From Brevinematales bacterium (GTDB lineage Bacteria > Spirochaetota > Brevinematia > Brevinematales > GWF1-51-8): a stretch of DNA of 44,613 nucleotides. The notes under the pieces are model-generated. The model had not been told where the DNA came from, made no database searches, and saw only the letters and a list, made by a program, of their open reading frames with translations. Positions 5,586-8,456 of the stretch are shown here, piece by piece. The stretch lies in assembly GCA_013177895.1 (NCBI GenBank), contig JABLXV010000023.1, positions 1-44,613 of the forward strand, written 5' to 3'. Each line of letters begins with the position of its first letter. The stretch's first letter is position 1. The translations under genes and the position numbers were made by a program.

Positions 5586-6089
5586 TTAGGCGATCCTGTT
5601 AATGATGTGGAGGTTTTTATGCCCCTCGCCCCGTTCCCGGTAATTATAAGTTTCCGTAACCGCGCCGCGGTTCGCAAAATTCAACGTAAAATTGATGATA
5701 TTCAAATTCGACTGAATCATCCGGGAGTTCTCACGCATCGTCGTTTCCATCTTAGACGTGAGTTTCTTGATATTCTTCCGAAGCTGCTGGAATTCATCCT
5801 GCATCTCGAGAGGGAAATGCGCGATCAGCTCGCTGAGCGGAGCCGACATCTCGATCCCGAGTTCGCGGGTCAGCCTGCCGATAAGGAGCGCGCGTTTCTT
5901 GTCGAGCGCGTCCATCTGGTGCACGAGGACATCCTCCTCGGAATTAAGCTGCATCAGTTTCTTGATATCGACCTGCTTGAGCGCGTCGAATTTCTGTTCT
6001 TCGAACGACGCAAGCGATTCGATAACCCCGCTGATTTCCTTTAGCGCCGCACCCAACCCAGTGAGTTCCTTCATCCATTCTGCCGACAT
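5586..6089 (-). CDS. flgN: FlgN-family flagellar export chaperone
   Basis: A 167-residue, almost entirely helical protein. FlgN chaperones bind the C-terminal helices of FlgK and FlgL and hand them to the export gate. Here the long central coiled coil (about residues 25-130, with EEDVLVHQMDALDKKRALLI) and the position just before flgK-flgL support the call, although the sequence family is weakly conserved. The start is set at ATG 6087-6089, which has GGAGGG 5 nt upstream. An upstream in-frame extension of 35 residues would run through that ribosome-binding site and the sigma-28-like promoter. First gene of the flgN-flgK-flgL operon. Confidence 0.85.
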   Translation of the reverse strand: MSAEWMKELTGLGAALKEISGVIESLASFEEQKFDALKQVDIKKLMQLNSEEDVLVHQMDALDKKRALLIGRLTRELGIEMSAPLSELIAHFPLEMQDEFQQLRKNIKKLTSKMETTMRENSRMIQSNLNIINFTLNFANRGAVTETYNYRERGEGHKNLHIINRIA

Positions 6090-6133
6090 ATTATCCCTCC
6101 ATGGAATATTCAGACATCCCTGTCTCTCTTCAA

Positions 6134-6160
6134 GTATCGGCGTATTATGAAAAAGTTGTA
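6134..6160 (-). promoter_or_regulatory. candidate sigma-28 (FliA) promoter of flgN-flgK-flgL
   Basis: Minus strand: TACAACTT, 11 nt, GCCGATAC. The reference sigma-28 pattern is TAAAGTTT-N11-GCCGATAA, so the -10 matches 7 of 8 and the spacing is exact, while the -35 is weaker (5 of 8). The predicted transcript starts about 35-40 nt before the flgN ATG. No comparable sigma-70 promoter is evident here. Confidence 0.65.
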
Positions 6161-6237
6161 GGATTAATAAAGGTGGAATTTGCATTATAAACAAACTGAA
6201 ACGGTTAATTATATGAATTTGTTTTTCCTAAATGCAA

Positions 6238-6266
6238 TTGACTAATTCTTTGTGTACTTTTATAAT
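6238..6266 (+). promoter_or_regulatory. sigma-70-type promoter of the ATPase-nuclease island
   Basis: TTGACT (6238-6243), 17 bp, TATAAT (6261-6266). It is near-consensus, 28 nt upstream of the ATPase start codon, and divergent from the flagellar operon. Confidence 0.8.
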
Positions 6267-6293
6267 ACTTTAATCAGGATACAGGAGAATAAT

Positions 6294-7331
6294 ATGCTTA
6301 CTAAAATCACCTTTGAAAACTTTACTGCCTTTGATGAACTAGAAATAAAATTTTCAAAAGGGATAAATATTTTTATTGGCGAAAATGGAACTGGAAAGAC
6401 CCATATTTTAAAAGCCTTATATGCTGCTTGTGATATCACAAAGAGTAAAAAGGGATTTGCGGATAAGATCAATGATGTTTTTTATCCATCTATCAAGCAA
6501 ATTGGGCGACTTGTAAAAAGATCAAATACTAGTAATAGCGGGTATGTGGAAGTTAAACGCATTTTATCAAAAGAGCAAGAGATCGCACTTAGAATAACAT
6601 TAACAAATCATATTATTACCCCCGATAGAGCCAAGGTAACAGGAGCTACAAAACAATGGTTAGACAACCCATTTGAGTCAGTATTTATTCCGGTTAAAGA
6701 TATGATGGCAAATGCCCCAGGCTTTCGATCACTCTACGCAACAAGAAACATCCATTTTGAAGAAGTGTATGCCGATATTATTGACCGCGCTTTCCTCCCA
6801 CCCTTAAGGGGACCAATGGATAAAGACCGGGTAAAACTGTTAGAAATTCTTCAAAAATCAATGGATGGAAAAGTGAAATTAAAAAATGAGGAGTTTTTTC
6901 TTAAAAACAAACAGGGAGAGCTTGAGTTTACTCTATTAGCGGAAGGATTTAGAAAATTAGGACTTCTATGGTTACTCATTCAAAACGGTACTTTATTAAG
7001 CGGAAGCACATTATTCTGGGATGAACCTGAAACCAACCTAAACCCTAAACTCATGCGAACAGTTGTAAATATTTTAATGGAATTACAACATCTAGGAGTA
7101 CAAATTTTTCTCTCAACACATGACTATATCTTATTAAAAGAATTTGATCTTGCCGCAAAAAGAGATGACCATATTCGCTATCTCAGTTTATTTCGTTCTA
7201 AAACTACCGATAAGATCATTCATTCCCCAAGTGATACATTCCAAAATCTTTCACCAAACACAATTGATGATACTTTTGGTTCACTAATTGACCGCCAGAT
7301 TTCAAGAGATATGGGGGGATTGGGTAAATGA
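6294..7331 (+). CDS. compact ABC/SMC-type AAA ATPase, possible defence module
   Basis: A 345-residue ATPase of the RecF/OLD-like AAA_15/AAA_21 group. Visible motifs are Walker A GENGTGKT (residues 29-36), a signature-like AEGFRKLG (216-223), Walker B LFWDEPE with its catalytic glutamate (240-246), a D-loop-like TNLNP, and the switch histidine in STHD (274-277). There is no long coiled coil and no TOPRIM domain, so it is neither an OLD nuclease nor a Rad50/SMC. The start ATG is set by AGGAG 6 nt upstream; an ATG-less 14-codon extension was trimmed. Its stop overlaps the next gene (ATGA). The gene is clearly A+T-rich compared with its neighbours, which suggests transfer. Such ATPases paired with a small nuclease occur in several anti-phage systems; that role is an inference. 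Confidence 0.88.
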   Translation: MLTKITFENFTAFDELEIKFSKGINIFIGENGTGKTHILKALYAACDITKSKKGFADKINDVFYPSIKQIGRLVKRSNTSNSGYVEVKRILSKEQEIALRITLTNHIITPDRAKVTGATKQWLDNPFESVFIPVKDMMANAPGFRSLYATRNIHFEEVYADIIDRAFLPPLRGPMDKDRVKLLEILQKSMDGKVKLKNEEFFLKNKQGELEFTLLAEGFRKLGLLWLLIQNGTLLSGSTLFWDEPETNLNPKLMRTVVNILMELQHLGVQIFLSTHDYILLKEFDLAAKRDDHIRYLSLFRSKTTDKIIHSPSDTFQNLSPNTIDDTFGSLIDRQISRDMGGLGK

Positions 7332-7843
7332 AAGTAATTACGGATGGTTACCAAATCGATTTTACTGATGCCATTTACGCTTTTGTGTTTGATGAAAAAG
7401 ATATTACAAAAACAACATTTCATGGCGCTCCGATGAAAGCGATAGATGTTATTGCAGAATTAGCAAATGAATATTTATTTGTTGAAATTAAAGAATATGA
7501 TAAACCGGAAGAATTTGATGAATCAGTTGACGATACTGATGAAATGGTAAATAAAGCACGACATGATCAATTTAGATGGCTAAAAAACTATTTAAAATAT
7601 AAGTATAGAGATTCATTTTTATATCGTTTTGCTGAGAATAAAGTATCAAAACCTATTCACTATCTTTGTCTTTTAAACTTTGACAATGCTCTTAACATGA
7701 AAATGGCAAAAAGTTTGAGGGCTGAACTCCCAGTAGGAAAAGCTTCTAGGAATTGGAATACTGAAATATCAAAAAGTTGTCAGGTGCTTAATTTAATAGC
7801 ATGGAATCGTAGCTTTCCAAAATGGCCTGCCAAAAAATTATGA
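7328..7843 (+). CDS. putative PD-(D/E)XK-like partner of the ATPase
   Basis: A 171-residue soluble protein that I cannot place in a named family. Residues 37-57 read KAIDVIAELANEYLFVEIKEY. An aspartate (D40), then 12 residues, then E53-I-K55 on a hydrophobic strand is the layout of a PD-(D/E)XK nuclease core. A conserved-looking basic/aromatic helix follows (RHDQFRWLKNYLKYKY, about 79-94). The gene overlaps the ATPase gene by 4 bp (ATGA), so the two are translationally coupled and probably form one system. It shares the same low G+C. Nuclease activity is inferred from the motif only. Confidence 0.8.
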   Translation: MKVITDGYQIDFTDAIYAFVFDEKDITKTTFHGAPMKAIDVIAELANEYLFVEIKEYDKPEEFDESVDDTDEMVNKARHDQFRWLKNYLKYKYRDSFLYRFAENKVSKPIHYLCLLNFDNALNMKMAKSLRAELPVGKASRNWNTEISKSCQVLNLIAWNRSFPKWPAKKL

Positions 7844-7850
7844 GATAATT

Positions 7851-8456
7851 ATGACATTCTTCGATTATTTCCAGTTCATTACAGTAATCGCGTTCATCGG
7901 CACATTGATCGTCCGCGCGCTGACTATCGCCGTCCGGCAGGGAATTGTCCCGGTCGTATTCGGCAACGAAAAGACCCTCGGGCGCAGGATCGTCAACTTA
8001 ATGCTCTTCCCCGCGATGCTGTACTGGCTGTACGAAATAATCAACGCCTCCCTGCATCTGGGCATCCGCCTCCTGCCGGGCTTGATGTACACGTCCCTAT
8101 TCGGCCACATCGCGCCCATGATCGTCGGATGCGTACTGATCACCGCCGGATTCGTCCTTTTCGTCACCGCTGCTATTCAAATGGGCGGGTCGTTCAGAAT
8201 TGGTATCGACGAGAAACACCCCGGCGGGCTGGTCACATCGGGGGTATTTTCCTTCTCGCGGAATCCGATCTACCTGTTCTTTTTCTCGTTCTCGACGGGG
8301 ATATTTCTGCTCAACGGCTCAATTATTTTCCTCGTATGGATATGCATCTTCGTCCCGATTATCCATTCGCAGGCGCTCTCGGAGGAAAGTTTCCTCGAAT
8401 CGCGTTTCGGCGACAGTTACCGCAATTACATGAAACGAGTCCGGAGGTATCTATGA
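7851..8456 (+). CDS. ICMT/PEMT-like membrane methyltransferase
   Basis: A 201-residue integral membrane protein with about five hydrophobic segments. Its C-terminal part matches the isoprenylcysteine carboxyl methyltransferase / phospholipid N-methyltransferase fold: GGSFRIGIDEKHPGGLVTSG (about 120-139), then FSFSRNPIYLFFF. It ends with EESFLESRFGDSYRNYMKRV, the usual E-E-x-x-L-x-x-x-F-G-x-x-Y-x-x-Y signature. These enzymes use S-adenosylmethionine; bacterial substrates are mostly unknown. It starts 7 bp after the nuclease-like gene but has the host base composition, so it is probably not part of the transferred module. The ribosome-binding site is weak (GAGAT). Confidence 0.82.
   Translation: MTFFDYFQFITVIAFIGTLIVRALTIAVRQGIVPVVFGNEKTLGRRIVNLMLFPAMLYWLYEIINASLHLGIRLLPGLMYTSLFGHIAPMIVGCVLITAGFVLFVTAAIQMGGSFRIGIDEKHPGGLVTSGVFSFSRNPIYLFFFSFSTGIFLLNGSIIFLVWICIFVPIIHSQALSEESFLESRFGDSYRNYMKRVRRYL

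Follow-up and report, generated by a model that had tools for sequence, protein, structure and literature searches.

A stand-alone HEC-02 ATPase-nuclease pair, a candidate defence cassette, inserted beside flagellar genes in a Brevinematales genome

Introduction

WonAB, an experimentally tested two-gene system from the WASA-1 prophage of Vibrio cholerae, was described in 2025: it aborts infection and requires both of its active sites, it halts translation while leaving the chromosome undegraded, and the toxicity of its nuclease depends on its ATPase (PMC12137116). The same paper calls PD-T4-4, an operon of an ATPase and a small nuclease, similar to WonAB. In PARIS, phage Ocr is detected by an ABC ATPase (AriA), which switches on a small, tRNA-cutting nuclease effector (AriB), as reported in PMC12839542. 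PARIS is also found in Salmonella embedded in BREX, an established defence operon, where no PARIS activity was found (PMC11341690). A BREX survey of January 2026 further described dyads of an OLD-ABC ATPase and a PD-(D/E)XK nuclease inside BREX and proposed them as backup effectors (PMC12839542). Among the catalogued HEC families (for Hma-embedded candidate), HEC-04, HEC-05, and HEC-06 have been reported to be active or functional (PMC12111858; PMC11411939; PMC12988326). For HEC-02, a literature search that did not cover the HEC-defining preprint returned neither a phage-challenge assay nor its naming as a defence system.

Here, we analyze a gene pair in a 44,613-nt stretch of DNA from a Brevinematales bacterium, hereafter the window. 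An earlier note, made from the sequence letters, had pointed to an A+T-rich ATPase-nuclease module inserted beside flagellar genes as a candidate defence system, possibly of an undescribed type. We find that the pair is, by its protein profiles, an intact and stand-alone member of HEC-02 and not a new type.

Results

An A+T-rich insert at a variable intergenic site

The two genes lie exactly where they had been placed, at 6294-7331 (345 residues) and 7328-7843 (171 residues); both are uninterrupted, they overlap by 4 nt (ATGA), and an AGGAG ribosome-binding site precedes the ATG at 6294. The setting is flagellar, with FlgN, FlgK, flagellin, and FliW as neighbors. The features are as follows:

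5586-6089, minus strand: FlgN flagellar chaperone, left neighbor, outside the system (Pfam FlgN, 9.5e-22; kept in all congeners)
6166-7850, no strand: A+T-rich inserted segment (missing from three congeners; G+C 0.330 versus 0.519)
6238-6266, plus strand: promoter-like site TTGACT-17 nt-TATAAT within the insert (11 of 12 matches, by sequence)
6294-7331, plus strand: HEC-02A, predicted OLD/Rad50-type ABC ATPase, 345 residues (PADLOC, Pfam AAA_21, structure model, motifs in 42 of 42 members)
7328-7843, plus strand: HEC-02B, predicted small PD-(D/E)XK nuclease, 171 residues (PADLOC, model and Foldseek, residues in 42 of 42 members)
7851-8456, plus strand: PEMT/ICMT-like methyltransferase, right neighbor, outside the system (Pfam PEMT, 2.4e-11; kept in all congeners)

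The lower G+C content that had drawn attention to the locus was borne out, as the insert (6166-7850) has a G+C of 0.330 versus 0.519 for the remaining window, and the lowest value in any other 1685-nt stretch of the window is 0.382. The insertion itself was equally clear: DNA homology to three same-genus genomes (G001, G002, and G003) stops at 6165 and restarts at 7850/7851, and in all three the FlgN and PEMT-like genes lie head-to-head without the ATPase-nuclease pair between them. By composition and comparison, the insert with its gene pair is a horizontal acquisition by the lineage of the window. In the insert, neither a recombinase nor a flanking repeat was recognized. As to the near-consensus promoter that the earlier note had ascribed to the module, the 11 of 12 consensus positions at 6238-6266 stand, but promoter-like matches as a class are not commoner than in shuffled sequence; because A+T-rich DNA often contains matches of this kind, the site is compatible with, and not proof of, a promoter of its own.

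Depending on the genome, the same intergenic site (6089-7851 in the window; L055, L056, and L057 in the congeners) is empty or contains either HEC-02, an A+T-rich gene for a membrane protein, or a GNAT gene. The gap measures ~193 nt in G001, carries an unrelated membrane-protein gene in G002 (gap of 29% G+C), and carries a GNAT acetyltransferase gene in G003. The contents of the site thus vary from genome to genome, and it is possibly an insertion hot spot.

A Rad50-like ATPase and a PD-(D/E)XK nuclease

The first protein matched the PADLOC-DB profile HEC-02A (PDLC04213) at 3.4e-127 and 423 bits, with residues 1-341 aligned to positions 1-335 of 337, and it contains the Pfam domains AAA_21 (3.7e-24) and AAA_15. 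The ATPase motifs named in the earlier note were all present and conserved in relatives: Walker A GENGTGKT (29-36), Walker B LFWDEPE with D243 and E244, and the H-switch STHD with H276, to which we add an ABC-signature-like AEGFRK (216-221). Across 42 diverse members, Walker A, AEGxxK, D243/E244, and H276 are invariant, with the exception of one T36S. The structure model (pLDDT 83.5) found its best matches in Septu PtuA (8eea, E 3e-16), retron PtuA, Rad50, and SMC heads. Motifs, profiles, and model together identify HEC-02A as a predicted compact ATPase of the OLD/Rad50-type ABC class. The matches to Rad50 and SMC heads would also suit a Rad50-like ATPase-nuclease pair for DNA repair or housekeeping, but the foreign base composition, the absence of the pair from nearly all relatives of the window genome, including all three congeners, and the embedding of its relatives in BREX (see below) make this reading extremely unlikely.

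The second protein matched HEC-02B (PDLC04229) at 1e-59, with residues 1-170 on positions 1-167 of 171. A single-sequence search of the PDB gave nothing useful; an AlphaFold model built from an alignment of 29 relatives (pLDDT 87.1) resolved the fold. In this model, D40 immediately precedes a strand at 41-44 and E53 and K55 lie within a strand at 49-55, after which come a long helix and a strand at 110-116. Foldseek returned PD-(D/E)XK enzymes almost throughout, with the small subunit of R.BspD6I as the best match (probability 1.00) and Nt.BspD6I, the RecB nuclease domain, Can2, Hjc, and McrC as further ones; the E-values are modest (best 1.5e-3), yet the matches agree on one fold. Besides the start Met, the only residues invariant across the 42 diverse members are D40, E53, K55, K92, R94, and P135. 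The D40-x12-E53-x-K55 core read from the sequence is thereby upheld, and by predicted fold and invariant active site HEC-02B is a PD-(D/E)XK nuclease; the modeling thus gave no sign of the non-nuclease fold that would have spoken against the proposal. Pfam and PADLOC profile searches of HEC-02B gave no AriB, DUF4435, TOPRIM, HNH, or PtuB match, in agreement with the earlier description of the partner. A weak Pfam PoNi_C match (E 0.0027, below cut-off) was taken as chance.

The pair belongs to HEC-02

The suggestion of an undescribed type did not hold. Because PADLOC-DB (2023; v2.0.0) contains both proteins at full length as HEC-02A and HEC-02B, and because the window has a full-length HEC-02A with a full-length HEC-02B alongside, the pair belongs to a catalogued family, from which no distinguishing difference was found; the window copy stands alone beside flagellar genes, in neither Hma nor BREX. 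Pairs of an OLD-ABC ATPase and a PD-(D/E)XK nuclease are likewise on record in the BREX survey (PMC12839542) and as WonAB (PMC12137116). The backup-effector dyads of the survey are of the same protein classes as HEC-02, compared here by description and not by sequence, and are located inside BREX, whereas the window copy is outside it.

In architecture, on which the comparison rests, WonAB resembles the window pair in that its operon joins an OLD-type ABC ATPase to a PD-(D/E)xK nuclease, and the C-terminal part of its ATPase has been proposed as a nuclease dock (PMC12137116), as we propose for HEC-02A. WonA is longer before Walker B, with its catalytic E300 and its H333 corresponding to E244 and H276 in HEC-02A, a numbering that implies different inserts. 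WonAB is also prophage-borne, whereas 50,697 phage records and IMG/VR contigs, the latter scanned by pattern, yielded no relatives of HEC-02B, and carriage by phages or viruses was rejected on that basis.

Membership in PARIS, Septu, or PD-T4-4 was rejected because the effector of the window pair belongs to none of their effector types. HEC-02A matches AriA profiles at the superfamily level, and PARIS shares the combination of an ABC ATPase with a small nuclease effector and an occurrence within BREX, but its effector is DUF4435/TOPRIM and not PD-(D/E)XK. Septu supplies the best structural match of HEC-02A in PtuA, but its PtuB is an HNH nuclease. For PD-T4-4, likewise an operon of an ATPase and a small nuclease, HEC-02A showed only a local match of 57 bits to PD-T4-4_A (compared with 423 bits for its own profile), and PD-T4-4_B was not matched.

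Strict pairing and a recurrent slot in BREX

A scan of genome contigs yielded 36 relatives from many phyla. In 34 of them, the ATPase precedes the nuclease with an overlap of exactly 4 nt, and the other two, L031 and L032, have a broken reading frame for the nuclease. Strict two-gene pairing and mobility as a single cassette could reflect an addiction pair similar to a toxin-antitoxin system, with A neutralizing B and with no dedicated role in phage defence, and the Pfam ATPase domain is in fact named "putative AbiEii toxin, Type IV TA". However, all 42 diverse members keep an intact ATPase site, including the catalytic Glu and the H-switch, which is unexpected for a simple antitoxin, the embedding in BREX points to defence, and sequestration was ruled out in WonAB because toxicity of the nuclease needs the ATPase (PMC12137116). 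We hence consider an addiction pair very improbable.

The defence association that had been proposed was strong in the relatives, as 25 of the 36 adjoin BREX core genes, a proportion that is not a population frequency because the sample consists of sequences similar to the nuclease of the window. In 22, the pair is preceded by brxC and followed by pglX, all on the same strand, and in a further three one of these genes is present; the same brxC-pglX slot is occupied in two plasmid homologues (28-29% identical) and in one genome (L074) from the phylum to which the window belongs. Within the stretches examined, the remaining 11 relatives lack BREX genes. The co-occurrence check thus favored the defence reading by strict pairing and BREX adjacency, but a defence-island signal was not found around the annotated stand-alone relatives, whose neighbors are mostly housekeeping genes.

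The slot showed further variation. A Schlafen/AlbA gene with HATPase_c_4 lies between brxC and HEC-02A in five loci (L001:5029-6744, L003:5095-6762, L004:5024-6790, L005:5033-6799, and L026:5191-6861), so the slot can stack two accessory modules. In Pseudomonas mandelii (L002:5144-10457; NZ_NMOJ01000092.1), the HEC-02 pair lies between ORFs matching PglX residues 1-591 and 600-1161, which indicates a BREX methyltransferase gene split around the cassette. At a locus of a second BREX type (L011:11954-15433), a 1160-residue protein without a Pfam or PADLOC match directly follows pglX.

The window pair itself is flanked by the FlgN and PEMT genes and not by a BREX operon, and its genome (95% complete) gave no PglZ or BrxC match and only a weak partial match to a PglX query; with no detectable BREX in the genome, the window copy stands alone. 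A conserved vertical pairing with housekeeping genes across the phylum, which would have counted against a defence module, was looked for and not found: the congeners lack the pair, a close nuclease query found it in none of the relatives drawn from genus to phylum (one weak match, E 8e-4, was not counted), and the HEC-02B profile matched in 13 of the 393 genomes searched in the phylum, 10 of these being distant pairs in one genus. As far as these searches reach, the distribution of HEC-02 in the phylum is patchy. The pairs of a single genus of this phylum (L075-L080) form a distant stand-alone HEC-02-like branch whose nucleases are longer and retain the D/E/K/K/R residues, and some genomes of that genus have two nuclease copies.

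Given that most relatives are embedded in BREX and that the window genome lacks PglZ and BrxC, HEC-02 might be an accessory module of BREX only, protecting it in the way proposed for PARIS, with the window copy a functionless stray passenger. Against this, stand-alone copies in several phyla are intact with every catalytic residue kept, distant stand-alone pairs are present in the window's own phylum, the window copy retains a promoter-like site of its own, and the PADLOC family name contains no mention of BREX. We regard this reading as improbable.

Unequal divergence along the ATPase

In both unrooted trees, the BREX-1-embedded pairs occupy one side of a branch (support 100/100 for A and 83/81 for B), whereas the stand-alone pairs intermingle with those of the second BREX type. 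Between stand-alone and BREX-1 members, ATPase identity rises from 14% in residues 51-125 to 25% in 126-200 and 50% in 276-345, and nuclease identity is 60%; between stand-alone members and those of the second BREX type, the corresponding values are 60%, 75%, and 61%, with 62% for the nucleases. In these alignments, the nuclease and the ATPase C-terminus diverge little while the ATPase insert region gets replaced, a pattern that may reflect an unchanging dock for the effector and a sensor that can change. Partner swapping between ATPases and nucleases had been suspected from the identity table; the tree orders of A and B agree, which leaves swaps unproven and points instead to unequal divergence along the ATPase.

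Discussion

Sequence and comparison support membership in the family, the nuclease fold and its invariant active site, strict pairing, acquisition, BREX embedding, and the pattern of conserved and variable regions. Building on the precedents of PARIS and WonAB, we infer for the window pair a complex, a trigger, a nuclease target (DNA or RNA), and a phage-defence phenotype, and we consider it likely that the locus is a horizontally acquired, stand-alone HEC-02 system in which an ATPase dimer senses infection and licenses a PD-(D/E)XK effector that aborts it. HEC-02A, as an OLD/Rad50-type ABC ATPase dimer, would serve as both infection sensor and gate, and HEC-02B, as the effector, would probably dock onto the conserved C-terminal part of HEC-02A (residues about 276-345). 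The variable insert region of HEC-02A (about 51-225) would recognize a trigger brought in by the phage; where the host carries BREX, this trigger could plausibly be a phage protein directed against BREX. ATP binding or turnover would then activate the nuclease, which would cut nucleic acid, DNA or RNA, and so lead to abortive infection. As the window genome lacks BREX and the annotated stand-alone relatives lie beside housekeeping genes, a role outside BREX is proposed by analogy.

A broader and rather doubtful proposal casts HEC-02 as a mobile BREX guard whose sensor can be exchanged. The insert region would vary with the BREX subtype, perhaps matching its anti-BREX proteins, the ATPase C-terminus and the nuclease would be fixed, and stand-alone copies would have left BREX to sense something else.

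Two aspects are new here: the location of most sampled relatives beside the BREX core, usually between brxC and pglX, with the window copy outside BREX, and the fixed nuclease and ATPase C-terminus set against a replaced insert region across the HEC-02 family. In the BREX-less genome of the window, a catalogued, little-studied candidate system forms an intact cassette that stands alone and has exact borders, which makes it a clean cloning unit. Together, the fixed nuclease and docking segment, the replaced sensor region, and the brxC-pglX slot would allow a direct test of whether such ATPase-nuclease modules shield BREX from the anti-restriction proteins of phages, a role that has been proposed for PARIS.
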